In this document: positions 112 to 41,183 of the stretch, one piece after another
Layout: every line of letters starts with the position of its first letter
How positions within the stretch are numbered: position 1 is the first letter of the stretch
Source of the DNA: a virus
Virus record (IMG/VR): IMGVR_UViG_3300034683_000177
Coordinates: 1-42,248 of that record
Direction: 5' to 3' (one strand)
DNA length: 42,248 bases
Position numbers and translations under genes: made by a program
Notes under the pieces: model-generated
What the model saw: the letters and a program-made list of their open reading frames with translations, nothing else
Told to the model about the DNA's origin: nothing
Database searches by the model: none

Positions 112-395
112 TTGGTGTATGTATTAAGTCAACTACCCACCGCCTATAGAGGTGGGGGCTTGTAGAAAAACAAGCTTGGTTGATTAGCCTCAGCCACGAC
201 CGAAAGGTTACGGGGCTACGTTACAGTAGAATACATAGGCACCATGGAATGCTCCACAAGTTCCATGCTCTGCGGACAATGGTTAAACATCTCTGAGGGG
301 TAGGAGAAGTGCTGTTGTCATTAAAACCTACTGTAACATTGGCGAAGTGGACTTACAGGCTTTTTAGCCTGACTTACCTTTAAAGGAGGTTTAAA
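112..395 (+). ncRNA. IscB omega-RNA (HEARO) with 5' guide region
   Basis: This non-coding stretch directly upstream of iscB folds well by eye. Visible helices are: a GGTGGG hairpin (136-156); CTTGT/ACAAG (159-163 with 169-173); ACC-GAAA-GGT (about 219-228 region start); a perfect 9-bp long-range pairing TTACAGTAG (221-229) with CTACTGTAA (328-336); CATGGAA/TTCCATG (243-249 with 261-267); and CAGGCT-TTTT-AGCCTG (356-371). The region is also more GC-rich than its surroundings. HEARO/omega-RNA is known to lie just upstream of iscB and to carry its guide at the 5' end, copied from DNA flanking the element. The native guide should therefore be the bases immediately left of about position 131. The 5' boundary is inferred. 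Confidence 0.8.
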
Positions 396-1745
396 ATGGT
401 ATATGTAATATCAATTGATGGAAAATCTTTAATGCCTACCAAAAGGCATGGTAAAGTTAGAAGACTACTTAAGCAAGGACTTGCTAAAGTAGTTAAAGTT
501 AAACCTTTTACTATTCAGCTTTTATATGATACTACTACCTATACACAAGATATTACACTTGGTATAGATAGTGGGTATAACCATATAGGTTTTTCAGCTA
601 TAACTGAAAAGAAGGAACTTATATCTGGTGAAGTTAAACTAAGAAACGATATATCTGAACTTATCAAGAAAAGAAGGATGTATCGTAGAATTAGACGCAA
701 TAGGCTTAGATATAGAAAACCTAAGTTTAACAATAGAGTATCTTCTAAAAAAGAGGGTTGGTTAGCGCCCTCTATTAAACACAAGTTAGATTCTCATGTT
801 AGGTTTATTAATTATCTTAAAAAGATATTGCCTATAGCTAACATAGTTGTAGAAGTGGCAAATTTTGATACTCATAAACTTAAAAACCCAAACGTAGTTG
901 GTAAAGGTTATCAACAAGGTGAACAACAAGATTTTTGGAATGTAAGAGAATACGTTCTGTATAGGGATAATTACACTTGCCAACTATGTGGCAAGAAAAA
1001 CACCATACTTGAGGTACATCATATAGGCTATTGGAAACAAGATAGAACAGATAGACCAGGCAATCTAATAACATTATGCACCAAATGCCACAATCCTAAT
1101 AATCATAAAGAGGGAGGTAAATTGTATGGGATGAAGCCTGTTCAAAAACCATTAAAAGACGCAACATTTATGTCTACTATAAGATGGAAATTGGTCAATG
1201 CGCTGATGTGTGACTACACTTACGGTTATATTACAAAATCCAAAAGAGTAAGTCTTGGTTTGGAAAAAACACATTATAACGATGCATTTTGCATAGCAGG
1301 TGGTAATAACCAAGAAAGAATAGAACCTATATACTTTGAACAAATAAGAAGAAATAATCGTTCACTTGAGAAGTTCTACGATGCAAAATACACTGACATA
1401 AGAGATAATTCTACTAAAACAGGGCAAGAACTTTTCTGTGGTAGACGAACACGAAACAAAAACTCAAACGAAGAAAACCTTCGTAAGTATCGTGGAACTA
1501 AAAAGTCAAGTGGAAGAAGAAGTATCCGTAAGCAAAGATATTCTTATCAGCCTAAGGATATTGTTATATACCAAGGGGAAAAATATACTGTTAAAGGTAT
1601 ACAAAACAAGGGCGATTATATTAGATTAGTAGAATTAACTAAACCAGTTAAAACTAATTTAGTTAAGCCTTATATATTTAGGAAAGGATTATGTGTGCTA
1701 TAGGTGCAATTCATCCCCCACCTATAGAGGTGGGAGTCTTCTTGC
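131..1745 (+). mobile_element. IS200/IS605-type element carrying IscB, no transposase (ends approximate)
   Basis: The left part has a hairpin with stem CCCACC/GGTGGG (136-141 with 151-156). The right part has a hairpin CCCACCT-ATAG-AGGTGGG at 1717-1734. Both share the identical 14 bases CCTATAGAGGTGGG (143-156 and 1721-1734). Subterminal hairpins at both ends are the hallmark of single-strand-transposing IS200/IS605 elements, the usual vehicles of IscB. No TnpA Y1 transposase is present, so the element would depend on one supplied in trans. TCAA at 128-131 next to the left hairpin is a plausible target tetranucleotide. Exact ends are inferred. Confidence 0.7.
396..1703 (+). CDS. iscB: IscB RNA-guided HNH/RuvC endonuclease
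   Basis: This is a full-length 435-residue IscB, the transposon-encoded ancestor of Cas9 that cuts DNA guided by omega-RNA. The N-terminal PLMP domain carries SLMPT (11-15). The RuvC domain is split: RuvC-I LGIDSG with D58, the arginine-rich bridge helix (about 90-110), RuvC-II VVEVANFD with E153, and RuvC-III THYNDA with H293 and D296. The inserted HNH domain has C195/C198, VHH (H208, H209) and C228/C231-H232. The C-terminal 380-412 region resembles the target-adjacent-motif-interacting domain. All catalytic residues are present, so it looks active. The start has a strong AAAGGAGG ribosome site ending about 9 bases upstream. It lies between the omega-RNA and the right-end hairpin. Confidence 0.93.
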   Translation: MVYVISIDGKSLMPTKRHGKVRRLLKQGLAKVVKVKPFTIQLLYDTTTYTQDITLGIDSGYNHIGFSAITEKKELISGEVKLRNDISELIKKRRMYRRIRRNRLRYRKPKFNNRVSSKKEGWLAPSIKHKLDSHVRFINYLKKILPIANIVVEVANFDTHKLKNPNVVGKGYQQGEQQDFWNVREYVLYRDNYTCQLCGKKNTILEVHHIGYWKQDRTDRPGNLITLCTKCHNPNNHKEGGKLYGMKPVQKPLKDATFMSTIRWKLVNALMCDYTYGYITKSKRVSLGLEKTHYNDAFCIAGGNNQERIEPIYFEQIRRNNRSLEKFYDAKYTDIRDNSTKTGQELFCGRRTRNKNSNEENLRKYRGTKKSSGRRSIRKQRYSYQPKDIVIYQGEKYTVKGIQNKGDYIRLVELTKPVKTNLVKPYIFRKGLCVL

Positions 1746-14706: not shown

Positions 14707-14758
14707 GAAACAATTCAAATTAAAAAAGAAAAAATAATAAACTCAGGAGGATATAACA

Positions 14759-17700
14759 ATGTCCGAAACTAATAAACCTGTTAACCCATATAATCTTTTA
14801 TGGACATGGTTATTTGATAGAAATTTAAATAGTCCCATTCCAGAAGAATGTATACCATTATCATCCAAATATTTCCTACTGAATCTAATTAAAAATCCAA
14901 AAGTTTGTCACTTTATTAACACCCATTTAAATAATTTTTCAATACATGCTCTTGATAAAGAGGATACGTTAAAATTATTAAAAGAACTATGTTACCACTT
15001 CAATATTACAAAAAGAGATCTATTATACATACCTTATAAAAAAGTAGAAGATAAGCAAAATATTGATAAAGTAAGACAAAAATTGCCACACTTCAAAAGA
15101 GATGAAATTCGCTATATCTTAGATAATTTTTCTGATAATGATGAGGTAATTGAAGTTTTATATGTTACTGGTATAATTGATGAAAATGATAAAAAATCAT
15201 TAAAAGAAAGAGCAAAGAAAAGAAAAGAAGAAGAGAAGAACAAAAAGATGAAATTTGATGAAATTATAAATTATTTTAAAGATCTTTTAAAAAGTCAATC
15301 TAATGAAAAATGTAAAATATGCCCATTATTCAATAATGATTTAGTTTTATTTGATACGAATGTTAAAACTGATATAAGCAAAACTGATGTATTATTTATT
15401 GCAGAAGCACCTGGGGCAGATGAAGTCAAAAAAGGTATCCCATTAATTGGAAGATCTGGACAAAAATTAAGACAATTTATTTCAAAATATCTAACACCAA
15501 GAAAAGTTAAATGGTTTATGACTAATACATGCTTATGTCGCCCAGATAATAATGCTACTCCAAACGATTTAGCTATTGATTGTTGTAATAGTAATTTATT
15601 ATACACAATAGATAAAACAGATCCTAAGGTTATAGTTCTATTAGGTAGCACATCATTAAAAACCTTTGGGTTCAATGATTTAAAAATAAGTAAAATTGAT
15701 GGAACAGTTTTAGAATGGATTCATCCTCAAAATAATAGAAAATATAAAATAGTACCAATGTTACACCCATCAGCAATAATTAGGAATGCATTTCCAGAAT
15801 CTAGATATGATCTATCCTTTACTTCATTAGTCAATGTATTAGAAGATAAAGAGCCACCTATTACAATAAATAGTGATGATAACAAAAATACTGAAAATCT
15901 TGAAAATCTTAATATTAATTTAGAAATAAATGATCATTATAATAATGTAGAAGAATCTCAACCAAAAAATAATTGGTTTTTATTTAATTATCCTAAAGAA
16001 TATAATGATCTATATCTTGTAGATGTACACACCATTTATGGTGAACCATATTATATTTTTAGAGATCAAAATGGTAAAAAAATTATTAAAAAATATGATG
16101 ATTATAATAACTACTATTTTTGGGAAAATAAAAATGGTAAATTTATAGAAAACATAGATGAATCTAGGTTACATTTAGTTAATTATAATGATTATACTAA
16201 AAATAGAAATACTTATGATACAAAATATTTGTATGAAGGAGATTTATCATTAGCCAATAGACACACCATTGAATTCTTAAGTCAATTTAATCAACGATAT
16301 GATAATCCTAAAATAATGTTTTTTGATATTGAAGTTTATAGAAAAGGATATTTAGGTTTTCCAGATCCCAAAGAAGCTAAATATCCTATAAACGCTATAT
16401 CTTATTATTTTGATGGTAAATATTATTTGAACTTATTACTAAATTCAGATAATCCTGAAAATAAGAAAATATTAGATAGCCCACAAGACTTGTTTAATGA
16501 TTTAGATGATGATATAAAAGATCTTCATGATTATAAAAATAATTTACAAATTAATACTTTTACAGATGAAAAAGATCTTATTAAACATTTTATAAATATG
16601 ATAAATAATGTATTACAACCAGATGTAATTACTGCATGGAACATATCATTTGATATTGGGTATATTTATAATAGAATGTTAAAATTAGGATTAGATCCAA
16701 ATCATATTTCTCCATTAAAAACATCATATGTAGATATGAATAGACATTTCTTTGATTTCCCTGGTTTAATAATTTTAGATATGATGTCTTTATATAAAGG
16801 ATTTACATTTGAAGGTAGAGAATCATATTCCCTTTCATTTATAGCAAGATTAGAATTAAAAGATGATAAGATACAATACGAAGGAGATTTGGATAGACTA
16901 TATATAGAAAATATTAAAAAATTTATACTTTATAATATTAAAGATACAAATCTTATTGTTAGACTTAATAGTAAACTCAAACATATTGAACTATTAAACT
17001 CAATGAGACAGATTGCTAAATGTACTTGGACAAGTGGTTTAAGTGTATCAACAATGGTGGATACATTAGTTGTTTCATATCTAAAGACAGTAAACAAATG
17101 TGTTAGAAATTTTGTTAAAGAATATCAAACTGATGGTAACTTATTAGGGGCATATGTTAAAACACCTAAAGGTGGATTATTCCAATATGTTGTAGATTTT
17201 GACTTCACATCACTATATCCGAATTTAATTAGAACCTATAATATAGGTCCAGATACATATATTTCAAGAGTAGATGAGGACTATGCATTTAATTGGTTAT
17301 ATAGAAAAGATATTGTAAAGAATAAAGATGTTACTATGTACACAAATGTATTAGAAAATGAAATTGTAAATACTATTCCATATAATACATTTGAAGAATT
17401 TATGAAAGATAAAATAATGACAGTTAATGGGTGTATCTATTTATCCCACAAACAAAAGAAATCAATCTTACACAATATAGTTACTGAATTGTTGGAACAA
17501 AGAGTTATTTATAAGAACAAAATGAAAGATGCTACTAAAAATAAAGATACACAAAAAAGAGAAACATATAATAACTATCAGTTAGCTTTTAAAGTTCTTG
17601 CAAACTCAATATATGGAGCTTTAGGTTTTAATTTTAGTAGATATTTTAATATACATATGGCCAGATCAATTACTATATCAGGTAGAGAAGCTATTAAATG

Positions 17701-17779
17701 GTGTGCTATTAATATTGATGATGAAGTAATAAAACTAACTAATAATTTGGATATTCTTTTAACGGAGGTAAACAAATAA
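14759..17779 (+). CDS. Family-4-like uracil-DNA glycosylase fused to family B DNA polymerase (N-terminal and exonuclease to motif B part)
   Basis: 1006 residues. After a helical N-terminus comes a UDG domain (about 180-365): CKIC (C185, C188), EAPGADE (E216), TNTCLCRP (C258/C260) and C275/C276, the four-Cys spacing of Fe-S family 4 enzymes, plus LHPSAIIRN (H336). The polymerase follows: Exo I FFDIE (D523, E525), Exo II NISFD (N628, D632), Exo III YNIKD (Y725, D729), motif A DFTSLYPNLI (D815), motif B KVLANSIYG (K945-G953). Motif C is missing because the gene ends there; it is supplied by the next gene. AGGAGG precedes the start. The protein should replicate DNA with proofreading and may excise or sense uracil. 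The fusion of UDG to a B-type polymerase is unusual. Confidence 0.9.
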   Translation: MSETNKPVNPYNLLWTWLFDRNLNSPIPEECIPLSSKYFLLNLIKNPKVCHFINTHLNNFSIHALDKEDTLKLLKELCYHFNITKRDLLYIPYKKVEDKQNIDKVRQKLPHFKRDEIRYILDNFSDNDEVIEVLYVTGIIDENDKKSLKERAKKRKEEEKNKKMKFDEIINYFKDLLKSQSNEKCKICPLFNNDLVLFDTNVKTDISKTDVLFIAEAPGADEVKKGIPLIGRSGQKLRQFISKYLTPRKVKWFMTNTCLCRPDNNATPNDLAIDCCNSNLLYTIDKTDPKVIVLLGSTSLKTFGFNDLKISKIDGTVLEWIHPQNNRKYKIVPMLHPSAIIRNAFPESRYDLSFTSLVNVLEDKEPPITINSDDNKNTENLENLNINLEINDHYNNVEESQPKNNWFLFNYPKEYNDLYLVDVHTIYGEPYYIFRDQNGKKIIKKYDDYNNYYFWENKNGKFIENIDESRLHLVNYNDYTKNRNTYDTKYLYEGDLSLANRHTIEFLSQFNQRYDNPKIMFFDIEVYRKGYLGFPDPKEAKYPINAISYYFDGKYYLNLLLNSDNPENKKILDSPQDLFNDLDDDIKDLHDYKNNLQINTFTDEKDLIKHFINMINNVLQPDVITAWNISFDIGYIYNRMLKLGLDPNHISPLKTSYVDMNRHFFDFPGLIILDMMSLYKGFTFEGRESYSLSFIARLELKDDKIQYEGDLDRLYIENIKKFILYNIKDTNLIVRLNSKLKHIELLNSMRQIAKCTWTSGLSVSTMVDTLVVSYLKTVNKCVRNFVKEYQTDGNLLGAYVKTPKGGLFQYVVDFDFTSLYPNLIRTYNIGPDTYISRVDEDYAFNWLYRKDIVKNKDVTMYTNVLENEIVNTIPYNTFEEFMKDKIMTVNGCIYLSHKQKKSILHNIVTELLEQRVIYKNKMKDATKNKDTQKRETYNNYQLAFKVLANSIYGALGFNFSRYFNIHMARSITISGREAIKWCAINIDDEVIKLTNNLDILLTEVNK

Positions 17780-18735
17780 TGGATATTAAAAAACATAGTT
17801 ATGAAAAATTCGTAAAAGAATTTAATGAGAAAGATGTTGATACAACAAAAGTTATTTATATAGATACAGACTCTATTTTTATAGAGTTGAATGAAATAGT
17901 CAGTAAACTCGAAAATAAGGTAAATAAGGATAGGATAGATATAATCCTTAATATTATAGTTCCCAAGCTACAAAATCTATTAAACACGTATTTTATACCT
18001 CAGCTGGCTAATAAAATACATAACGTAGATTTAGATGAGATAACCTTAAACTTAAAACAAGAAGTTATTGCGAAAAGTGCATATTTTCTAGATAAAATTA
18101 AAAAGAAATATGCTTTGTATATTATAAATAAAGAAGGTGTTGAGGTTGATGAATATGATATAAAAGGATTGGAAATTAAAAGATCTGACTTCCCAAGAAT
18201 CACAAAAGAAAAATTGGAAGAGATGTTAGACATAATATTAAAATCTGATAAGATTGATATTTTTAAATTATTGGATTTTGTTGATAAAACAAAAAGAGAA
18301 CTTATGAATTTAATATTAGATGGAGATGTTAGAGTATCACGTCCTGTATCTTTTAGCAAAGATATGGATGATTATAAAACAATTCCACAACATATAAAAG
18401 GAATGGTTTGGTGGAATATATTAGAATACAATTATTTTCTACCTGGTACAAAAGGATATTTATTTAAAATAAAAGGTATAGATCCATCAAAAGCTCCTAA
18501 TAAGATAACAGAAAATTTTAATAAGGCTAAAAATGAAAATATTCCAGAATTGGGAAATAAAATGTTAGATGTTATTGTAATTCCTCAAGAATTGGATAAA
18601 TTACCAGATTACTTTGTAATAGATACACAGCATATGATTAATTATGCATGGGAAGATAGAGTTAGAAACTTATTAGGAAATTTTATAGAAATAAAAATGA
18701 GAGAAGTCCAAAAAAGAAGAATTGCTACATTTTAA
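17779..18735 (+). CDS. Family B DNA polymerase, C-terminal (motif C, thumb) subunit
   Basis: 318 residues beginning just before motif C, YIDTDSIF (Y27, D29, D31), which holds two catalytic aspartates of the polymerase palm. The remainder resembles the palm/thumb end of T4-type polymerases, e.g. KKKYALYIINKEG, DIKGLEIKRSDFP (about 130-142), and a C-terminus LGNFIEIKM. The ATG overlaps the TAA of the upstream gene (TAATG at 17777-17781), and GGAGG at 17764-17768 is correctly spaced inside the upstream gene. The split therefore has its own translation signals and is not merely a frameshift or sequencing error. The two products should assemble into one polymerase. Confidence 0.88.
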   Translation: MDIKKHSYEKFVKEFNEKDVDTTKVIYIDTDSIFIELNEIVSKLENKVNKDRIDIILNIIVPKLQNLLNTYFIPQLANKIHNVDLDEITLNLKQEVIAKSAYFLDKIKKKYALYIINKEGVEVDEYDIKGLEIKRSDFPRITKEKLEEMLDIILKSDKIDIFKLLDFVDKTKRELMNLILDGDVRVSRPVSFSKDMDDYKTIPQHIKGMVWWNILEYNYFLPGTKGYLFKIKGIDPSKAPNKITENFNKAKNENIPELGNKMLDVIVIPQELDKLPDYFVIDTQHMINYAWEDRVRNLLGNFIEIKMREVQKRRIATF

Positions 18736-18743
18736 AAAACAAA

Positions 18744-18770
18744 AGAGGGGCAATTGACCCCTCTATTTTT
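18744..18770 (+). terminator. Bidirectional rho-independent terminator
   Basis: Stem AGAGGGG (18744-18750), 7-base loop, CCCCTCT (18758-18764). T-rich follows on plus; A-rich before it gives TTTGTTTTTT on minus. It serves both the polymerase transcript and the convergent ferritin-like gene. Confidence 0.85.
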
Positions 18771-18809: not shown

Positions 18810-19322
18810 TTATGCCCCCAATTCTCTATGTTGTCCTAATTTATTTGCAAAATCATCAAAATGATCTTGTTCATCTTTCATTAATTCCATAAAAAATTGG
18901 TGAGTTTCAAGATCTTTAAATTTCATTGCCAAGCATGCCATCAATTTATAATCTTTGATTGCTTTCATTTCTAAATTTTGAACAAATTGTAATATTTGTG
19001 TATCATCGGAACAATCTGATGGATTGACAACATCATTATCAAAAACTATTATTAATTGATCACCAAAACCATGATTGTATGCAAATTCAATTAATTCTTG
19101 GTAATGTTCAAATTCTTCTTTTGCATGTTCCAATAATTCTTCTTGGTACTCTTTATCTTTTAAATTTTGTGCCAATCTAATATAAGATGTAGCAGCAGAT
19201 ATTTCATCTCTTAAAAATTTATTGAATGATTTTTTAACAAAAGCAGGATAGCAAAAATCATTCATTTGAAATTTTTCTTTCATTCTTTGTATTATTTGTT
19301 CAATCATTTCTTCTGTAGTCAT
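18810..19322 (-). CDS. Ferritin-like diiron protein
   Basis: 170 residues with the four-helix ferritin/bacterioferritin signature. E40 in RDEISAATSYIRLAQ is followed by HAKEEFEHYQELI with E70-x-x-H73, then E118 in NLEMKAIKDYK and DEQDHFDDF with E151-x-x-H154. The paired E-xx-H ligands predict a dinuclear iron site for iron oxidation/storage or peroxide removal. It has no signal peptide. It is a lone minus-strand gene between two plus-strand units, with its own promoter motif, AAGGAGA site and a shared terminator. Ferritin-like proteins in large phages are known; here it may handle iron or oxidative stress in an anaerobic host. A Dps-like DNA-binding role is an alternative. Confidence 0.8.
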   Translation of the reverse strand: MTTEEMIEQIIQRMKEKFQMNDFCYPAFVKKSFNKFLRDEISAATSYIRLAQNLKDKEYQEELLEHAKEEFEHYQELIEFAYNHGFGDQLIIVFDNDVVNPSDCSDDTQILQFVQNLEMKAIKDYKLMACLAMKFKDLETHQFFMELMKDEQDHFDDFANKLGQHRELGA

Positions 19323-21181: not shown

Positions 21182-22809
21182 GCAATTACTTTTACAGTAT
21201 AATCTGGATATTCCTTTTTGAATTTTTCAACCAATGGTTTGACCATATAATCTCCCTCTAGGTCATTCTTTGAAATTACAATCTTCTTATTGGCATGATC
21301 CATATAACTATTCTTACCAACTCTTGTTATACTATCATTTGGATTTGTGTCTTCATATTGTTTTGTTTTTTCTTGATTATCTATTGTTTCTTGTGCTTTC
21401 ACATCTAGTGTATCTGTTCTGGTTGGTGTTTGTGTAGTAGCATCTTGTGTTTGATTACTTTGTGCTTGTTTTATCTGAGCTAATTGTTCATCTGATATAC
21501 CATATGGGTTAGGTGAAGTTTTTGAAATGTAGTCTTTAACCCTCTTTTCTCTCTCCTCTGGAGTCTCTTGTTGTTGCTGTTTCTTTTTATAGTCCTTTAA
21601 TTGACTTACTGGAATACCATATATTTTTTCCTCTGTAACTTTTTCAATAGAAGGTGGTGTACTTGTTGTTGCTTTCTTTATTTGAGGTGTGGTATCAGCT
21701 GCAGCAGTGGCAACTCTTGTTTTGGGTCTTTGTTGATCAGTTGTTGGTGACTTCTTTAATTTAGCTAATGTAGCTAACTTTTCATCTTCAGCAAAACTTC
21801 CAGTCGCATAGTTATTTACATATTCTGGAGTATAGTGTCCATCTAATGAAGACATTTTAAATGATAATATATTATCAATATAATCTTTTAATGTGGGAAT
21901 ACCACTATCACTTGCACTACCATCTTCCATAACTAATCTAACATTGTGCAATTCACTAAATGTTAACTTGATATCTACTAAGGTAGGGCGCTGATCATAT
22001 GTAAAAGCCGCAGAATCACCACCTTTAGTAATTGACATATCTTTAATTGCTGCATATTTAAGAAAAAACATACCAGGTGCTTCTATCTTACAATAAAATG
22101 GCCATCTATAAGATACACCATCATTTGATCTTGGCATAACAAATAGTAGTAATGCTACTAATGGGCCTACTATGTACTTTTCAAACATCTCATCATTTCC
22201 GGGATATGGATTATATAATCTAATAGTCACACCATAATCCATTGATGCAGATGAACCTTTCCAGATAGATGGCATATCAATCTTATTACCAATTAAAACA
22301 TTTTTTAATGATCTAGTTAAACTATTGGATTCACCCATTTGTAATATTTTAGTAGCCCCTTCTCCCGCGGCTTTTACTAAATCTCCACCTACTGGTAATT
22401 TATCAGCCAATGTATTTAATCCATTTGTTATTTTCTTCTCCATATCCTGAACACTTCCAACTCCTAACAACTGCCTGGCATCTAAAAATTTATCACTTAC
22501 CGCGTTCGCCATACTTTCTACAAATGAATCACCAAAATCACTACTAAACGATTCACTTATAGAACCTTCATTTATAAATGCTAATTCTAAATATTGGAAA
22601 CCTGAATTTAAGTTATACCCATATTTATTTAGAATACTTTTAAATTGAGCCATTGATGGTTTCAATCTATATATTTGTAAGGCTTTACCAAAATCTGGTT
22701 CCATTGGATATACTCTCATTATAGGAAAAGATTGTTGTATTTTTGTTTTAGTTTTATCATCACCAGATTCAACAGGTGGAAGGCCTATAACTTTTGGTAA
22801 ATTTATCAT
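21178..22809 (-). CDS. Putative tail-tube/baseplate structural protein
   Basis: 543 residues. The central region (about 190-310) has a pattern typical of myophage tail-tube cap/initiator or similar proteins: YGVTIRLYNPYPGNDEMF, VMPRSNDG, WPFYCKIEAPGMFFL, then RPTLVDIKLTFSELH. N-terminal about 90-150 is Gly/Ala-rich and helical. Residues about 345-480 form a Thr/Gln/Pro-rich, probably flexible linker before a small C-terminal domain (VVISKNDLEGDY-like). It lies 20 bases downstream of the tape-measure gene with its own AGGAGG, matching tail gene order (tape measure, then tube/baseplate). The exact T4 equivalent (gp48 or gp54) cannot be fixed by eye. Confidence 0.55.
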   Translation of the reverse strand: MINLPKVIGLPPVESGDDKTKTKIQQSFPIMRVYPMEPDFGKALQIYRLKPSMAQFKSILNKYGYNLNSGFQYLELAFINEGSISESFSSDFGDSFVESMANAVSDKFLDARQLLGVGSVQDMEKKITNGLNTLADKLPVGGDLVKAAGEGATKILQMGESNSLTRSLKNVLIGNKIDMPSIWKGSSASMDYGVTIRLYNPYPGNDEMFEKYIVGPLVALLLFVMPRSNDGVSYRWPFYCKIEAPGMFFLKYAAIKDMSITKGGDSAAFTYDQRPTLVDIKLTFSELHNVRLVMEDGSASDSGIPTLKDYIDNILSFKMSSLDGHYTPEYVNNYATGSFAEDEKLATLAKLKKSPTTDQQRPKTRVATAAADTTPQIKKATTSTPPSIEKVTEEKIYGIPVSQLKDYKKKQQQQETPEEREKRVKDYISKTSPNPYGISDEQLAQIKQAQSNQTQDATTQTPTRTDTLDVKAQETIDNQEKTKQYEDTNPNDSITRVGKNSYMDHANKKIVISKNDLEGDYMVKPLVEKFKKEYPDYTVKVIA

Positions 22810-30019: not shown

Positions 30020-31420
30020 TTATAGTATATTCGCAACAAATGTTGCTAACTCAGATCTTTCACCTTTATCTAGATATATTGTACTATATTTTTTATAACC
30101 ACCTATCCTAAACTTTTCTGACATATAAGTTAATCCATTATCTTGTGGTGTCAAATATGGATTATCAATTTGATAAATATCACCTGTTAATATAATTTTT
30201 GAATTAAAACCAATTCTACTTATTAATGTTTTAACTTCATGTGGACTCAAGTTTTGAGCTTCATCAACTATAAATATACAATTAGTTAATGATCTACCTC
30301 TCATATATGCTAATGGTTGAATTTCTATCATTCCAGACTTTTCTAGATATTCTATAGTCAATTGTTTTGTATCAATATCTCCATCATATTTACCAGATTT
30401 GATACTTCTTAATATAAAATCTAAGTTGTCATATATTGGTTGTAACCACGGTCTTGTCTTTTCTAATGCATCACCAGGTAATGCACCAGGATCTTTTCCT
30501 AAAGGAATTATTGGTCTACCAATTATTAATTTTTCATATATACCATTTAGAACTAGTTCTAATGATGCAGCTAATGTAATCAATGTTTTACCAGACCCAG
30601 CAATACCCATTATAAAACAAATATCAATATCTGGATCTAAAACGGAATGTGTAACAAAATGTTGTTTATAATTCTTAGGATGTATACCAAAAACAGATTT
30701 AATATCATTTAATAATTCAAATGTTTTTACATTACCAACTTGTTTATAAATAACTAATGCAGATTTTTTATCATTTGTTTCACATTTAATCAAAAAATAC
30801 TCATTATTAAAAGGTTCTAATGGTTGATCATCTGATCTTATAAACAATTGTTTATCAAAATATATATACTTATCTTTATATAATTGATCTAGTGTTTGTT
30901 CGCTTGCTACTAAATAACTACCATTTATTTGTATAGAATTTTCTATTTTAGTATTCCTATAATCTTCCGCTTGTATTCCTAGGTAATTAGCCTTTATTCT
31001 CATATTAATATCTTTGGATATTAATATAGTATCATGATATTCTACCCCTTGTATTTTGGAGTTTTTAACTGTTAAGCATGTATTTAAAATAATATTATCA
31101 TTGACTCGTGATTCATTACTTGAACCTAATTGAAATTCTTTTGGTAAATTAATACTAGGATCATAAAATTGTATTTTTAATATTCCACCATTTTTTAATA
31201 ATATCCCATCATCTATGGTTGTGTCTGTCGTTTGAATATAGTTATCTAATTTTCTAGAAACTTGTCTTGCATTAAATCCTCTTAAATCGAAATATTTTTT
31301 AAAATTATCTAATTCTTCTAATACTACAGATGGAATAATTACAATATTATCTTCAAATTTTTCAAATGCAAATGGGTCATATAATAAAACATTAGTATCC
31401 AGAACATACGCCTTTCGCAT
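30020..31420 (-). CDS. phoH: PhoH-family ATPase with N-terminal PIN nuclease domain
   Basis: 466 residues with the two-domain PhoH2 architecture. The N-terminal PIN domain starts AYVLDTNVLLYDP (D8), with further acidic residues VVLEELD (E35/E36) and KDINMRIKA (D137), expected of a metal-dependent RNase. The C-terminal P-loop ATPase has Walker A GIAGSGKT (272-279), Walker B FIVDEAQN (D386, E387) and sensor-like LTGD (411-414). PhoH2 proteins unwind and cleave RNA. Phage copies are common, though their role in infection is not settled. AGAAGGAG precedes the ATG. It lies between the phosphoesterase and the candidate small RNA. Confidence 0.9.
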   Translation of the reverse strand: MRKAYVLDTNVLLYDPFAFEKFEDNIVIIPSVVLEELDNFKKYFDLRGFNARQVSRKLDNYIQTTDTTIDDGILLKNGGILKIQFYDPSINLPKEFQLGSSNESRVNDNIILNTCLTVKNSKIQGVEYHDTILISKDINMRIKANYLGIQAEDYRNTKIENSIQINGSYLVASEQTLDQLYKDKYIYFDKQLFIRSDDQPLEPFNNEYFLIKCETNDKKSALVIYKQVGNVKTFELLNDIKSVFGIHPKNYKQHFVTHSVLDPDIDICFIMGIAGSGKTLITLAASLELVLNGIYEKLIIGRPIIPLGKDPGALPGDALEKTRPWLQPIYDNLDFILRSIKSGKYDGDIDTKQLTIEYLEKSGMIEIQPLAYMRGRSLTNCIFIVDEAQNLSPHEVKTLISRIGFNSKIILTGDIYQIDNPYLTPQDNGLTYMSEKFRIGGYKKYSTIYLDKGERSELATFVANIL

Positions 31421-31517
31421 ATATATTCACTCCTTCTAAAACTCAGTAAAATTATTAGAGTTTAATTATTAACAAACTGTAAATTATATATCTATCCACA
31501 CTTCCACACCATCTCCT

Positions 31518-32750
31518 TTAGTTCATATCTACAAAAATATCCAACATCCAATTTACACCATATTCTTCATGAATAGAAAACATTGTTTGTTTTGGTTCTG
31601 TTCCTGTAAATATTGAACCCATTGAGTGTTCATTAGTACCACTTAAACATCCATTCATAATTATTTTACCGCCAACTTTTTCCAATGAGTTAGCCGTATG
31701 AAAATGACCCATTACTAAATAATGTGGATATATATCTTTCGTAGCTGTTAATAATTGTGTAATTTGAGAATCTGCTCTTCTTATACCATAAAATGGTATC
31801 CCAGCATAAGATCTTACTTTGGAATCACCATGTAATAATAAGAAATTATGTCCAAATTTCTGTACTATTAACATTGATGATTTTGGGATAATAAATTTAA
31901 CTCTATTATTATTCTCAAATTTAGTTTCTATAAATTTATATACTAAATAATCAAAGTTATTATACTTTTGTTTATAATATGGTTTCTTTTTCATTCTACC
32001 ATGGTTTCCAACTACACCAGCAACTTCAATTTCATCAAAATAATCCAATAGATTATAAATTATTTCAGCAAGTTTATTTGCCAATATAACAACCTCATCA
32101 ACTATTGAAGTACCTTGTAATAATTCTTCATGGATTATTCCAGAAACCATATCTCCTAACATCCAAATATTTAGCTTATAATACTTTTCAATATTGACTT
32201 TACTTAAAATGTCTACAATATGATAAAATAGATTATCCAATCTTTTTAACATGATATCTACATTATACTGATTAATACCTAATGTTTCTTCTAATGATAT
32301 CTCCTCACCAGCATGTATGTCTGATAATAATAATACCAATTCTTTCTGAATATTTGTTTGTTTCGTTTTACTATCATAGTTTATATTTTCTGGTACTTTA
32401 TTATCATACCTATTAAGAGAACTTTTAAATAAACTTATAATCCTTTCTTCAAATGTTCCCACTTTCCTCAATTCATTATATTTGTTTCTCCAATAATCTA
32501 ATTGATTCTCATAAAATTTAATTTTTGCTTCTTCTTCTGTTATTTTAACACTTTTGTCCTTTTGTTTAACTATTACTTTTTTTCTTTGGTCTTCAGGTAC
32601 ACCTTTAAACATTGAATTAATTTGTGCTAATCTGTTATAAACTGTTCTCTTTGTAACCCCTAATTGATTTGATATCTGATCTGGTGTTAATCCTTCTTCC
32701 TTTAATTTGTAGATTTTGTACTGTGTCTCTGTTAATTCAATAATATGCAT
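31518..32750 (-). CDS. Calcineurin-like metallophosphoesterase with N-terminal helix-turn-helix
   Basis: 410 residues. Residues 8-45 form a LuxR/sigma-70-region-4-like helix-turn-helix (LKEEGLTPDQISNQLGVTK, then RTVYNRL). A linker coiled coil (about 72-105) follows. The C-terminal metallophosphoesterase carries all five motifs: LLSDIH (D144, H146), LGDMVSG (D200), GNHGR (N249, H250), LLHGD (H307) and GHFHTA (H349, H351). It should be a two-metal phosphodiesterase or phosphatase; the HTH suggests it acts on or at DNA. Cousins in phages are often SbcD/Mre11-like or of unknown substrate. The promoter motif at 32794-32815 drives it, and it is followed by phoH about 100 bases on. Confidence 0.85.
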   Translation of the reverse strand: MHIIELTETQYKIYKLKEEGLTPDQISNQLGVTKRTVYNRLAQINSMFKGVPEDQRKKVIVKQKDKSVKITEEEAKIKFYENQLDYWRNKYNELRKVGTFEERIISLFKSSLNRYDNKVPENINYDSKTKQTNIQKELVLLLSDIHAGEEISLEETLGINQYNVDIMLKRLDNLFYHIVDILSKVNIEKYYKLNIWMLGDMVSGIIHEELLQGTSIVDEVVILANKLAEIIYNLLDYFDEIEVAGVVGNHGRMKKKPYYKQKYNNFDYLVYKFIETKFENNNRVKFIIPKSSMLIVQKFGHNFLLLHGDSKVRSYAGIPFYGIRRADSQITQLLTATKDIYPHYLVMGHFHTANSLEKVGGKIIMNGCLSGTNEHSMGSIFTGTEPKQTMFSIHEEYGVNWMLDIFVDMN

Positions 32751-32793
32751 AATAACTTCAACCCTTCCTATTTAAACATTAGAGTTTATATAA

Positions 32794-32815
32794 ATAAATA
32801 TTTTTTAATTGTTCT
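32794..32815 (-). promoter_or_regulatory. Candidate phage promoter motif (minus strand)
   Basis: Reads GAACAATTAAAAAATATTTA on the minus strand, about 43 bases before the HTH-phosphoesterase start. AAACTCTAAT, found between it and the start, recurs before phoH (near 31455) and may be an operator. Confidence 0.5.
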
Positions 32816-32884
32816 TAAAATTGGTTTAAACTCAAATTAACTATTTTAGAAACATTTCTAGATAGAAATTAATTATATATTAAC

Positions 32885-35599
32885 CTATCCACATTTACTA
32901 TACCCACAATCTAAACACTTATCACAACCAGATTCATATATTAAATTTACACTTTTACATACTGGACATTTTTTAACACTACTTAATTCATCAACATCAT
33001 CACTCCCATTAGACGAATCCCCATATTGAACATCAGAATAAGGTTCATCAATTTGGATATCTGATTCATCATCGATAAATTCTTTTAATGGATATTTACT
33101 TAATAATCTACTCAATATACCAGACAGATGTGTAATATTATATGATGATTTTTTCAACTGTTTAATTATTTCTTCCAATGGTAATCCATATCTCAATGCC
33201 AAACTTGTCAGTCTACATATACTATGCCAATAGGATAATCTTTCCAAAAATAACTCTTGTTTAAAAACATCATCACCATTAATTCCTGCCTCTTGTGGTA
33301 GCTGTGCAAATAATTCTAATGGGTTACCATTTTCATCATGGACAACATTAACATATATTTTAATACCTTTCCATCTAATTCTATATCTTCTAGCATCTTC
33401 TTCTTCTAATAAATCTTTTTCATAAAGTATATTAATTCCTAAAGATGTTGCAAGATCTATTACTTTTTGTCTTATATTAGTTGGTAGTAATGCTAATTCA
33501 ATATGATCTAATTCTTTTATCATATCTATAACATTAGAAACACCATTCTCTATTTGTTTAATTGTAGTTTCTATATTGTTACTATTATCAATGGATTTAT
33601 TAGCTACATTGTTTACTGGTTTTGTATTTTCAGGTTGAGTTGTGCTAATATTTTCAAGCCCAAACCATTTTCTAAATCTAGTATAAGCTTCTTGATGTGT
33701 TTCATCTTCATAAACAAAGAAATAATCTTTTATTTTCTCCTCACTAATAACAAATACACTACCAGTAACATCATTTGGTCTATATGTTGTGCAACCTTTT
33801 AACCCTAAATCATATGCTATCTCATAAACCTTTTTAAAGTCTTCAAAATCATAATCCTTAGGTATATTTATAGTTTTAGAAATTGATGTATCTATATACT
33901 TCTGACAAATGGCTTGCATCTTAATATGATCTTCTACCTTCAATGTATATGCTGTTTCAAAATATCTTGGAACTGGTGCATCTTCCCCATATTTTTGTGT
34001 AAATATTTCATAAGCATAATCTCTGACAATTTCTTCCTTTTTACTACCATCAGGTTGTGTAATTCTTCTTACATATTTTAAATTAAATATAGGTTCAATA
34101 CCACCTGAACAATTATTACCCATAGACAAAGATATTGTTCCAGTTGGTGCAATTGATAATACCCTACAATTTCGTATTCCATATTTCTCAATTTTCTCTT
34201 TTAATTCTAATGGTAATCTTTGTATAAATGGACTATTAATAAACTTTTCATAATTGAATAGTGGGAAAGATCCTTTTTCTTTAGCCAAATTTATTGATTC
34301 ATCATATGCAATATTTCTCAATTCTCTAAATATATTTTCAGAAAATAATCTACCCTCTTCACTTGAATATCTTAATCTCATCATTGCCAAACAATCAGCC
34401 AATCCTGTAAAACCTAAACCTATTGGTCTTTTTAGTTCAACTTCTATTTTTTGAGCGTCCAGTGGATAATAATTAATATCCAACACCCTGTCTAATCCTC
34501 TAACCATTAATCTGGTTGCTTTATCAAATTCATCCCAGTTAAATTCAGCATTTTCCTCAAATGGATTTTTTACAAATGTTGATAAATTAATAGACCCCAA
34601 ATTACAACTACCATATGCAAACAATGGTTGTTCACCACAGGGATTAGTTGATCTTATATCTTCTAAATAATATAAATTATTTTCAGTATTAATAGTATCA
34701 ACAAATAACACACCTGGTTCAGCATAATGATAATTACTTTCCATTATCATATCATATAGTTGTCTTGCTTTAATAGTTTGATATACTTTTACAGGATATC
34801 CCAATTCCATCCATTTATATATATTACCTTGTAAACTATTTTTACAAGCTTTTTTATATTTTTCGATAACTTCATCTTTACTTATATATGGATATTCTAT
34901 ATACCATTTATAAAATTCTTCTAATTGTTTAGCTCCCCATATATCATTATATTTAGGATGGGATGTATCTGGAAATATTAAATCCCAATCTTCATCATCT
35001 TTAACAGCTTTCATAAATTTATCATTTATAGCAACAGATATATTAAATTGAGTAAGTGTTTGACCATCTCTTTTTGCTTTAATAAAATTTATAATATCTG
35101 GATGCCAAACATCTAATGGTCCCATGTTAGCACCACGTCTATTTCCACCTGCTTTTATTGTTTTAGTTAATGCATCAAATATACCCATAAATGATACAGT
35201 ACCAGTAGATTCTTCTCCAGATGAATATATTTTAGCACCAGATGGTCTCAATACTGAAAATGATGCATAGCCCAATCCTCCTCCGGATTTCATAACTAAT
35301 GCAGCATTCTTGGCAGTATCCATTATATCAACCATAGAATCATGGAGTACAGGAATAACATAACAATTTGAAAATGTTACATTCTTTCTAGTTGATCCAA
35401 CACCATATAAAATTCTTCCAGCATAAAAACACTTACGATTATAAAATAGATTATAAAAATCTTCTCTATAATGATTATCAATTGTAGAATCAACAACTCT
35501 TCTACAAAATTCCTCATACGACTCATTTGGTTGAGCATATTTTAACTTCCACTGCTCCCTTGAAATATCAAATACAAAGTTATCATTAGTGGTGCTCAT
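32885..35599 (-). CDS. nrdJ: Class II (adenosylcobalamin-dependent) ribonucleotide reductase
   Basis: 904 residues. Makes deoxyribonucleotides for phage DNA synthesis. Key residues: C79 (SNCYV) and C332 (CNLGSINLS) as the redox pair, NPCGEQPL with radical Cys C321 and E323, GGGLGYASFSVLRPSG and the RRGANMG loop. After the barrel (to about 625) comes a variable linker, then a NrdJ-type C-terminal domain (KGIKIYVNV to ALRYGLPLEEIIKQL), and an acidic linker ending in a four-plus-cysteine zinc ribbon (CPVC ... CDKCLDC). There is no ATP-cone and no adjacent nrdB, nrdD or nrdG, which fits class II: it is oxygen-tolerant and uses host B12. No B12 riboswitch is seen upstream. GGAGG precedes the ATG. 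Confidence 0.92.
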   Translation of the reverse strand: MSTTNDNFVFDISREQWKLKYAQPNESYEEFCRRVVDSTIDNHYREDFYNLFYNRKCFYAGRILYGVGSTRKNVTFSNCYVIPVLHDSMVDIMDTAKNAALVMKSGGGLGYASFSVLRPSGAKIYSSGEESTGTVSFMGIFDALTKTIKAGGNRRGANMGPLDVWHPDIINFIKAKRDGQTLTQFNISVAINDKFMKAVKDDEDWDLIFPDTSHPKYNDIWGAKQLEEFYKWYIEYPYISKDEVIEKYKKACKNSLQGNIYKWMELGYPVKVYQTIKARQLYDMIMESNYHYAEPGVLFVDTINTENNLYYLEDIRSTNPCGEQPLFAYGSCNLGSINLSTFVKNPFEENAEFNWDEFDKATRLMVRGLDRVLDINYYPLDAQKIEVELKRPIGLGFTGLADCLAMMRLRYSSEEGRLFSENIFRELRNIAYDESINLAKEKGSFPLFNYEKFINSPFIQRLPLELKEKIEKYGIRNCRVLSIAPTGTISLSMGNNCSGGIEPIFNLKYVRRITQPDGSKKEEIVRDYAYEIFTQKYGEDAPVPRYFETAYTLKVEDHIKMQAICQKYIDTSISKTINIPKDYDFEDFKKVYEIAYDLGLKGCTTYRPNDVTGSVFVISEEKIKDYFFVYEDETHQEAYTRFRKWFGLENISTTQPENTKPVNNVANKSIDNSNNIETTIKQIENGVSNVIDMIKELDHIELALLPTNIRQKVIDLATSLGINILYEKDLLEEEDARRYRIRWKGIKIYVNVVHDENGNPLELFAQLPQEAGINGDDVFKQELFLERLSYWHSICRLTSLALRYGLPLEEIIKQLKKSSYNITHLSGILSRLLSKYPLKEFIDDESDIQIDEPYSDVQYGDSSNGSDDVDELSSVKKCPVCKSVNLIYESGCDKCLDCGYSKCG

Positions 35600-35786: not shown

Positions 35787-36473
35787 TTATTCTGAGGTAT
35801 TTGTTGCAGACCAAACTAATTGACAATCCTTTAGATGAATAGACTCATACAACTCTATCAATTCTAATACTTCTTCATCCAAAGGATAATTATCTATGAT
35901 ATATTTATAATCACCTTTAATTAATTCTATAGGAATATTTAAAAAACCATTATGAAATTTTTCGTGTAATGAAGTTATTAATGGAATAACACCAATTTTC
36001 ATTTTATAATGTAAATCAATTACTTCCCCAGCTATATCGAAAGAACAAAATGAAATACCATCTAATATATGTTTATTTAAAACAGCTGTTATTATATTTT
36101 CTAATGAAATTGGATGATGATGGATTTCTACTGTTAATTCATGCCCAGATTCATTAGTTAGTGCACAATTATTATATTGTAATATTTCTCTCAAGTATTT
36201 TGTCCACACACTATATTCATATGATCCTCTTACCAATCTTTTAACAGTGTTGATAAATTTCTTTTTATCTTTTTCATCTGCAAAATCAATTATTTTTAAT
36301 GATAAACTATATGGAAAATTTTCTGATTCTAATGTAGGATTATTTTCATCATCATTACTTTTTATTTTTATATCTGTTTTTGTAATATCCTCTAAGTATT
36401 TTGATTCATTATTATCAATAATATTTAAATTATTAAAATTAATATCATTAAGATTAACAAATTTTTCATCCAT
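35787..36473 (-). CDS. HNH-like metal-binding phage protein
   Basis: 228 residues. The first 50 are acidic and probably disordered. The core has CALTNESGHELTVEIHHHP (C103, H118-H120), a long helix, then PLITSLHEKFHNG (H170, H174, N175). The order Cys, EIHHH, then LH-x3-HNG matches an HNH/beta-beta-alpha-metal arrangement seen in a family of large-phage proteins. The canonical CxxC pairs are missing, so nuclease activity is uncertain. The start lies 4 bases from the stop of the upstream 903-residue gene with GAGGGG, so the two are co-translated. It may be a structural or nuclease partner of that protein. Confidence 0.55.
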   Translation of the reverse strand: MDEKFVNLNDINFNNLNIIDNNESKYLEDITKTDIKIKSNDDENNPTLESENFPYSLSLKIIDFADEKDKKKFINTVKRLVRGSYEYSVWTKYLREILQYNNCALTNESGHELTVEIHHHPISLENIITAVLNKHILDGISFCSFDIAGEVIDLHYKMKIGVIPLITSLHEKFHNGFLNIPIELIKGDYKYIIDNYPLDEEVLELIELYESIHLKDCQLVWSATNTSE

Positions 36474-39204: not shown

Positions 39205-39300
39205 TAATTGTTCTAATTCCCTATGACGCTCACACAGGGCAAGCCCTGTGGATTCAAACGAAGGTTGATTACTCATTTGCAATCCTTATTCGTTTAGGGA
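39205..39300 (-). ncRNA. Candidate TnpB reRNA (omega-RNA) 3' end
   Basis: This is the 3' end of tnpB plus its right end, on the minus strand, with the 8-bp hairpin at 39232-39249. In IS605 elements the guide RNA is processed from this region. The native guide would be the minus-strand bases just past about 39215. Boundaries are not defined by sequence alone. Confidence 0.4.
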
Positions 39301-40150
39301 ACGCCACAATGCCCTTTATCATCTCAGGAGTAAACTCCATTGATGTTACTTTTGATTTACGGGCTATATTGATAGCACCATTTACATCAGAATTAATCAA
39401 TATTCCGTCTTTGGATTTAAACAAACCTCTTTTTACTCTTTTCCCTACATACTCATCATGATGTTTAATTTCTTCATTATCAATTGCTGAACATTTAGAA
39501 GTATGAGATTCTTGTATCTCAAGATATCTTAATCCATATTCTTGACACTTGGATTCCAACATTGACATCAAATATCCAAAAGGAACTTGTACAAAATTCT
39601 GATTGTTCTTTTTACCTATATTAATTTCCTGCTTCCATCCTTTGTTGTGTCCTACTACGATTGTTCCAATATCATTATCAATGCAATAGTCAAGAATATA
39701 TTTAGCTGTTTTTCTCATTACATCTTTAATACGATTCTCTCTTTTTCTCTTCAACAGGAATTGCTGTCTTGTGTAACCCTTGATATTTTGTTTGTCCTTA
39801 ATACTTTGCAACTTTGCGTTCTTTTTGTTCCAGTAATAGTTAATTGATTTGAGCTTTCTCCCGTCCATTATAAACGCCCTATTACTTGAAACATCGTAGC
39901 AAGTAGCAAGATTTGACAAACCAATATCAATACTTAAAACATTATCCTGATTAAGATTTAAATTTTGTTCTTCTACTTCATATACTACCTCCATTTTAAA
40001 AAATGTTGCTTTCTGTTGTGGAATTATTCTTATTTCTTGGACTGCTTCCCTTTCTATCTGTGTGGGAAAATCTAAAACGATATTCTTCAATCCAGTTTCT
40101 TTTTTAAGTTGCCTTGAAAATTCCCTATAACCATTCAATATCATTAATTT
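39205..40150 (-). mobile_element. Remnant IS605-family element with right end and truncated tnpB
   Basis: The right end is marked by a perfect hairpin CACAGGGC-AA-GCCCTGTG at 39232-39249, just downstream of tnpB. In complete elements the reRNA covers this end and its guide is copied from the flank beyond it (toward 39210 and lower). No left-end hairpin or tnpA is present; the left part has been lost and the gene now abuts and overlaps the Cas4-like gene. Ends are approximate. Confidence 0.65.
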
Positions 40151-40159
40151 TATGAACAT
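39269..40159 (-). CDS. tnpB: TnpB RNA-guided nuclease, N-terminally truncated
   Basis: 296 residues against about 370-410 for the family. The N-terminal HTH and most of the first wedge half are missing; a stop codon lies directly upstream of the ATG. The kept part has EIRIIPQQKATFFKMEVVYE, RuvC-I LSIDIGLSNLATC (D78), the IVVGHNKGWKQEINIGKKNN block (168-187), QESHTSKCS (E217) and RuvC-III INSDVNGAINI (D258). The usual RuvC-II Glu site is a Gly (G170), so E217 may replace it, as described for TnpBs with rearranged active sites. It overlaps the Cas4-like gene by 35 bases and has no good ribosome site. Probably a decaying remnant, possibly still an RNA-binding protein. Confidence 0.85.
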   Translation of the reverse strand: MFIKLMILNGYREFSRQLKKETGLKNIVLDFPTQIEREAVQEIRIIPQQKATFFKMEVVYEVEEQNLNLNQDNVLSIDIGLSNLATCYDVSSNRAFIMDGRKLKSINYYWNKKNAKLQSIKDKQNIKGYTRQQFLLKRKRENRIKDVMRKTAKYILDYCIDNDIGTIVVGHNKGWKQEINIGKKNNQNFVQVPFGYLMSMLESKCQEYGLRYLEIQESHTSKCSAIDNEEIKHHDEYVGKRVKRGLFKSKDGILINSDVNGAINIARKSKVTSMEFTPEMIKGIVAFPKRIRIANE

Positions 40160-41183
40160 CTATTTTTTTATTGCCCTCTATATTAGTTTGTTCTTTTAAA
40201 GGTTCTACTGGTGGATTATCATTATCAAATAATATTCCTACTAACTCATCTTCCTCATCTATTTGTTGATCATGTTCTTTTTTAACATTTTCTTGCTTAT
40301 TACTTAATTCTAATAAGTTAACATTATTCCCACATATTTTCTCAGCCACTTCAAACTCATCAAAATTTCCCGGAACATACATTTCACCTTCTTTATCACA
40401 GTGTAAATGATATTTACAAAAGAAACAATCACCTTTATTAACTATATTAGGCATTTGCTTATTTTTTATAAATTCATAAGTTTGATATGCTCTTTCAAGA
40501 TATGGTAATACAAAATTTTCTAATTCTGAAATATTATTTATAGGAAAAATATATTCATCATAATTTTTTAGATTTCTTTCAATATATATTAAATGACCTT
40601 CAGTTATTGGATAATTTTGTTTGATTGATAAATATATTAGTAACATCAATTGAATAAAATGAGCTTTGTCAAAAGTTTTAGGTAGTTGGTCCATTGTTTT
40701 TATTTCTATTAATATTCTATTATCTATTATACCGTCACATTTTCCTCTTACCTTATATTTATCCGATTGTAAATAAATAGACGTTGTATCATGAATTCCT
40801 AGTAATTTTGCTATATAATCATGGATAAAGCTACCTATTTCATTCATTAAAACTGTATATGGATATTGTTTAGATTTATTCTCATCTGGTTGATATTTCA
40901 TTCTATCAAACCAAACTAATCTAGGACAACTGTATACATTAGTCAATGCTAAAAATCTATCATATCTACCAACTGGTTTATCCATTTGAACTTTAATTTT
41001 TTCTAACTCTTTTAAAATTTTAGGTATAATATCCATATTTCTATATGGGCATAGTATCATATTATAATTATCTTCTTTTTGTTGAGTGAAGGGTTTCATT
41101 TGATCAGTCTGATTATTATTTTGTGTTGTATCCGTTAAATTAAGTTCTTTTAGGTATTTCTCCATGTAATTATATTGGTTCAT
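40125..41183 (-). CDS. Cas4/RecB-like PD-(D/E)XK nuclease with Fe-S cysteines
   Basis: 352 residues. The nuclease core has C86 in SCPRLVWFDR, H121 in GSFIHDYIAKLL, D150 in KVRGKCDGIID, then EIKTM with E160 and K162, and QLMLLIYLS with Q178. C253, C256 and C262 (CFFCKYHLHC) complete, with C86, the four ligands of the Cas4/AddB-type Fe-S cluster. Such enzymes are single-strand exonucleases used in recombination and end-processing. The N-terminus (1-50) and the acidic C-terminal 70 residues look disordered. There are no CRISPR genes nearby, so a replication/recombination role is likelier. AAAAGGAG precedes the start. The C-terminus overlaps truncated tnpB, so the last codons may be transposon-affected. 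Confidence 0.85.
   Translation of the reverse strand: MNQYNYMEKYLKELNLTDTTQNNNQTDQMKPFTQQKEDNYNMILCPYRNMDIIPKILKELEKIKVQMDKPVGRYDRFLALTNVYSCPRLVWFDRMKYQPDENKSKQYPYTVLMNEIGSFIHDYIAKLLGIHDTTSIYLQSDKYKVRGKCDGIIDNRILIEIKTMDQLPKTFDKAHFIQLMLLIYLSIKQNYPITEGHLIYIERNLKNYDEYIFPINNISELENFVLPYLERAYQTYEFIKNKQMPNIVNKGDCFFCKYHLHCDKEGEMYVPGNFDEFEVAEKICGNNVNLLELSNKQENVKKEHDQQIDEEDELVGILFDNDNPPVEPLKEQTNIEGNKKIDVHKINDIEWL

Follow-up and report, generated by a model that had tools for sequence, protein, structure and literature searches.

The locus at 14759-18735 of the window, as we call the whole 42,248-nt stretch of viral DNA analysed here, raises the question whether a uracil-DNA glycosylase (UDG) has become part of a family B DNA polymerase (PolB) whose gene is split in two, and what such an enzyme might do. 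The reading that we favour, with some reservation, is that the two genes, A and B, encode the two-subunit replicative PolB of a T4-related phage lineage, with a family-4-type UDG at the N terminus of the large subunit. The locus was found to contain the following features, L106 being an unsplit relative described below:

14746..14750 (+): ribosome-binding site GGAGG of gene A, 8 nt before the ATG
14759..17779 (+): gene A, 1006 aa, comprising an N-terminal region, a family-4-type UDG, and PolB exonuclease, palm and fingers through motif B
14759..15262 (+): N-terminal region, about 168 aa, predicted helical (shuffle test against L106; AF2)
15311..15841 (+): family-4-type UDG domain, aa 185-361 of A (Pfam, alignment, AF2)
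15974..17728 (+): T4-type PolB N-terminal domain, exonuclease, palm (motif A) and fingers (motif B), aa 406-990 of A (phrog_262, RB69 gp43)
17591..17617 (+): motif B, KVLANSIYG
17711..17776 (+): C-terminal tail of A, the first half of the enlarged motif B-C loop
17764..17768 (+): ribosome-binding site GGAGG of gene B, within the end of gene A, 10 nt before the ATG
17779..18735 (+): gene B, 318 aa, the rest of the palm with motif C, plus the thumb
17863..17874 (+): motif C, DTDS, unbroken, in gene B
18744..18764 (+): intrinsic-terminator-like hairpin 3' of gene B

Pfam searches identified both UDG (PF03167) and DNA_pol_B in gene A, in agreement with the fusion that the first-pass annotation had proposed. 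The DNA_pol_B match covered aa 773-989 (E 1.2e-29) and DNA_pol_A was absent, indicating that A is not a UDG-family A polymerase, and gene B matched divDNApol and DNA_pol_B. The exonuclease motifs FDIE (aa 522-525), N628/D632 and D729, motif A (DFTSLYP, aa 815-821) and motif B (aa 945-953) were located in A, and motif C at aa 29-32 of B, which places the break between motifs B and C, where it had been annotated. Against the T4-type polymerase profile phrog_262, A aligned to positions 20-567 of 856 (E 7.7e-106) and B to positions 558-764 of 856 (E 2.6e-22). On the solved structure of RB69 gp43 (E ~1e-44), A aligned up to about residue 603 and B from about residue 616, so that the break falls in the short stretch that connects the helix following motif B to the motif C strand. 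With exonuclease motifs I-III, motifs A, B and C and the T4-type profile match all present, the pair belongs, as had been annotated, to the proofreading B-type polymerases, here of T4 type, for which a single chain is usual but non-defining; two genes take its place here.

The UDG match (aa 208-345 of A, E 4e-21) passed the Pfam cut-off for the UDG superfamily. In an alignment of 81 viral UDGs, the metal-cluster cysteines (C185, C188, C260 and C276) lined up with those of family-4 UDGs, bearing out the four-Cys domain described earlier, and the majority residue was found at these four positions and at E216, E222, N256, H336 and P337. Motif A reads AEAPG (aa 215-219), compared with GE(A/G)PG in family-4 UDGs (PMC10359453), and motif B reads HPSAIIR (aa 336-342), which departs from the family-4 pattern HPS(S/A)(L/V)(L/V)R by conservative changes only. 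A215 replaces the first Gly of motif A, as in 9 of the 80 other viral UDGs, and L229 replaces the Phe of PFxG, as in 8 others of the same 81-UDG set; since both residues recur in this way, a loss of UDG activity would be neither shown nor excluded by them. The nearest solved structures were TM0511 (1vk2, E 5.8e-22), followed by other UDGs of that type, and in the AF2 model pLDDT was mostly above 90 over aa 211-360. The score against TIGR00758, the NCBIfam model for family-4 UDG, was 90.2 bits and thus below the cut-off of 125.3, so the domain is named family-4-type and is not placed as a member of family 4. UdgX was also considered and rejected, as GEQPG and the KRRIH loop are absent, the window having AEAPG, and CRPDNNATPND where the loop would be. 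No catalytic residue appears to be clearly lost, and the tethered UDG is probably active.

Ahead of the UDG lies a region of about 170 aa that the first-pass annotation did not mention. It matched no Pfam family beyond chance and had no named Foldseek match; its local alignment score with L106 was 61, versus a maximum of 56 in 500 shuffles, which points to a distant counterpart there. The AF2 model of A had a mean pLDDT of 68.8 and a pTM of 0.49, the UDG and much of the palm being good, and the N-terminal region (helical, low confidence) and the overall arrangement poor; in Foldseek, this model matched RB69 gp43 with low TM-scores.

The open reading frames A and B have one base in common, within TAATG, and this overlap and the GGAGG at 17764 were both present where they had been annotated. 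GGAGG followed by ATG after 5-12 nt was observed 19 times across the whole window, versus 2.84 expected, and is a window-wide start signal. Another IMG/VR contig, 3300034684_000235, which may derive from a related sample and is then not fully independent, had zero mismatches to the window over genes A and B; over 13 kb it differed by just 4 SNPs, which all fall at 21988-22051. In addition, the pairwise alignment of A plus B with L106 crosses the junction with no residues missing. A genuine coupled split is favoured by the TAATG overlap, the GGAGG 10 nt upstream, the terminator after B and the second, identical assembly, so that, with a junction residue-complete against L106, the earlier claim of an evolved coupled split stands, and a sequencing error is an unlikely source of it. 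As the window is a metagenome fragment, one might suspect such an error, a misassembly or a decaying pseudogene, but the identity of the second contig over both genes, the intactness of every polymerase and exonuclease motif and the presence of ribosome-binding site, overlap and terminator make this scarcely credible. Programmed frameshifting near 17770 could instead join the frames into one polypeptide, the split being only apparent; the open frames of A and B overlap by about 35 nt, and the tail of A plus the head of B add up to the unsplit loop length. We consider it very unlikely, however, as a strong GGAGG lies at start-codon spacing inside the end of A and no canonical slippery heptamer was seen by inspection at AACAAATAATGG. 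A minor A-B fused product may still be made. A split intein of the MIJ3 type was rejected, because the tail of A and the head of B follow the L106 loop with no additional domain at the junction. Read from the sequence, the domain order, the retention of active-site residues of the polymerase, the exonuclease and, for the most part, the glycosylase, and the coupled overlap are all evident.

The unsplit relative was found on two near-identical (99.99%) contigs, IMGVR_UViG_3300005573_000054 (L106) and 3300002182_000013 (L107). L106 is a 159-kb phage contig with one 1311-aa ORF in the order N-terminal region, UDG and PolB, about 30% identical to the window's enzyme; gene A matched it over aa 13-980 (E 1.5e-76) and gene B matched its C-terminal part over aa 21-297 (E 5e-15). 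The L106 UDG has the canonical Gly (GEAPG) and Phe, and the metal-cluster Cys, Glu, Asn and His are kept in both. Window and L106 were sisters in the UDG tree (100/84, 100% bootstrap) and in the PolB tree (100/98, 100% bootstrap), where L106 formed a long branch. Since both trees pair them, the fusion appears to be old and the split secondary, and one ancestral UDG-PolB fusion seems the simplest reading. Also encoded on the L106 contig is a protein that corresponds, at 26% over about 850 aa, to the baseplate wedge protein of the window, and the protein at 35787-36473 (-), phrog_12252, has a counterpart in the L106 phage (E 1.7e-36), suggesting that the two phages are distant kin.

The distance from motif B to motif C is 81 aa (53+28) in the window and 83 aa in L106, whereas the span from motif B to DTDS in the intact T4-type PolBs read is nearly always 50-52 aa, with four at 60-61 and one at 216. 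These sequences indicate one origin of the fusion shared with L106 and a break within a lineage-specific enlarged loop, which appears to have been enlarged first and cut afterwards. T4-type PolBs have evidently been split repeatedly, also in the interval from motif B to motif C, loci with PolB_N only being counted as splits only where a separate C-terminal ORF was present. LR756508 and three further loci (L038, L051 and L060) are split between B and C, carry foreign tails or inserted genes, and lack a UDG; LR756508 was rejected as the fusion source, its PolB being split in the same interval but lacking the UDG. In this 484-kb phage (LR756508.1; L005, L017), about 3 kb of other genes separate PolB motifs B and C, and apparent inteins lie at both motifs.

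A pattern taken from three split PolBs also retrieved 14 contigs, L206, L207, L208, L209, L212, L038, L051 and L060 among them, which represent at least five sequence types and all have split T4-type PolBs; an insertion of 5 nt inside motif C gives these the sequence GAY ACY TR ACY GAY TC. Their restart ORF begins with MKIK, a short basic leader, and reads ..YxDT followed by a stop, and a second Thr codon 5 nt past the first resumes DS. In four types, a 12-bp hairpin ends directly before the first Thr codon; 4 pairs are altered on both sides among four sequences, and the MFE is -11 to -21, whereas 84 intact relatives average -1.7. The matched Thr codons were part of the search pattern, whereas the hairpin and the basic leader were not. 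These loci have the appearance of a naturally occurring translational hop of 5 nt in motif C, perhaps connected with the insertion of homing endonucleases between motifs B and C; their matched codons, stop after take-off, hairpin and basic leader recall the bypassing in T4 gene 60, which is tied to a homing endonuclease split (PMC5009743). Unlike in these 14 loci, motif C of the window is uninterrupted.

The domain search across phage polymerases that had been proposed with the annotation found UDG-PolB only in the window and L106/L107. Scanning IMG/VR with a UDG alignment, together with an HMM survey, turned up 56 UDG+PolA ORFs and 29 lone UDGs, and UDG+PolB only in the contig of the window, L106 and L107, and further scans added seven UDG+PolA and zero UDG+PolB; these counts refer to the best 80 loci per scan, so that fusions that are scarcer or more diverged may have escaped. 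A UDG was absent from all 80 T4-type PolB loci closest to the window (L025-L104), tblastn of phage records returned no UDG-PolB fusion (the fused matches opened were family A, and PolB matches were at about 30% identity or lower), and two scans of genome contigs found no relative. In the literature searched, UDG is described on phage PolA and beside poxvirus PolB and no phage UDG-PolB was found, an absence that does not prove novelty. The UDG-PolB fusion is known here from two lineages only, all others of the about 60 fused phage UDGs surveyed being on family A polymerases. The combination with a split PolB had been called unusual, and this holds for UDG-PolB as such, but the fusion is not confined to the split enzyme, as it is unsplit in L106.

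Elsewhere in the window, at 128-1703 (+), a HEARO RNA (128-356) precedes an IscB-type RNA-guided endonuclease (396-1703, NF040563, E 3.2e-110), evidently a phage-borne IscB with its own guide RNA. A 296-aa TnpB-family protein at 39269-41183 (-) lacks the first ~150 positions of the profile and overlaps a Cas4-like nuclease. A ferritin/rubrerythrin-like protein (18810-19322, -) adjoins the polymerase genes, and a PhoH-like protein, a phage exonuclease (phrog_284) and the ribonucleotide reductase large subunit lie at 30020-35599 (-). No dUTPase was recognised within the window.

If A and B are the two subunits of a replicative T4-type PolB, they would be co-translated, B via re-initiation at 17779, and would assemble non-covalently, the palm being rebuilt from motif A of A and motif C of B. 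The tethered UDG would clear uracil near the fork, either misincorporated dUMP or deaminated cytosine, and thereby link uracil repair to synthesis; uracil exclusion or repair-synthesis coupling, as had been suggested, is a plausible function. The polymerase would, however, be blocked by AP sites that the UDG leaves in its template, and this makes the place where the UDG acts less certain. The D4 protein of vaccinia virus is a family 1 UDG, so any likeness to the UDG of the window would be convergent. It is a minor but real possibility that the latter is likewise mainly a DNA-binding or processivity module, excision being of little importance: D4/A20-E9 is a described UDG and PolB holoenzyme (PMC5682278), the fusion has been retained across deep divergence, and A215 and L229 are minority residues, but the cluster Cys, Glu, Asn and His kept in the window and L106 would be superfluous in a module that only binds. 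To the more specific proposal that the UDG serves the replisome as a structural or processivity component, by convergence with D4-A20-E9, and that the enzyme probably arose from a UDG-PolA by a swap to a T4-type PolB, we give little credence. In the UDG tree, modest bootstrap values (80-88%) placed the window/L106 pair among the branches of UDG-PolA, and this weakly supported position fits a polymerase swap behind a retained UDG; switching between PolA and PolB reported in crAss-like phages (PMC7886860) offers a parallel. UDG-replicase tethering recurs in phages and poxviruses, and the T4-type PolBs are the best-understood replicase family in which to study its purpose, while the window and L106, as a split/unsplit pair, show how a polymerase gets cut between two catalytic aspartates after loop growth.

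Among known systems, the UDG on family A polymerases of SPO1-type phages, cited in the first-pass annotation, is a true parallel, found also in PaBG gp205 (PMC7412058) and in Thermus phage phiLo, where the fusion is annotated as DNA polymerase I; PDB chain 9qhs has a similar layout and name. Like gene A, these enzymes have an N-terminal UDG followed by exonuclease and polymerase, and theirs is the dominant fused-UDG arrangement, but the polymerase is of family A, is unsplit in those seen and mostly lacks a comparable ~170-aa N-terminal region. Vaccinia virus also has a UDG attached to a family B replicase, D4 with A20 being the processivity factor of E9 (PMC5682278), but D4 is a separate protein joined via A20, and the architecture is not homologous to the fusion in the window. 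The two-polypeptide PolB of Methanothermobacter (PMC7776575) resembles A and B in being encoded in two parts but is cellular and without a UDG. T4-type PolBs in two genes are found in Aeromonas phages 25 and 44RR and in Acinetobacter phage AB1I1M-1 (43A/43B), and 43A and 43B of phage 25 co-purify with polymerase activity (PMC2988022), which gives a precedent for activity of A plus B after splitting. In these, unlike in the window, the break lies after motif A and before motif B (43A of AB1I1M-1 ends at KVP40 ~491; 43A of phage 25 has 498 aa) and a UDG is absent, and an endonuclease gene or untranslated insert lies between the halves in phages 25 and 44RR. L106/L107 has the domain order of the window, the sister position in the trees and the enlarged motif B-C loop, but is a single 1311-aa chain.
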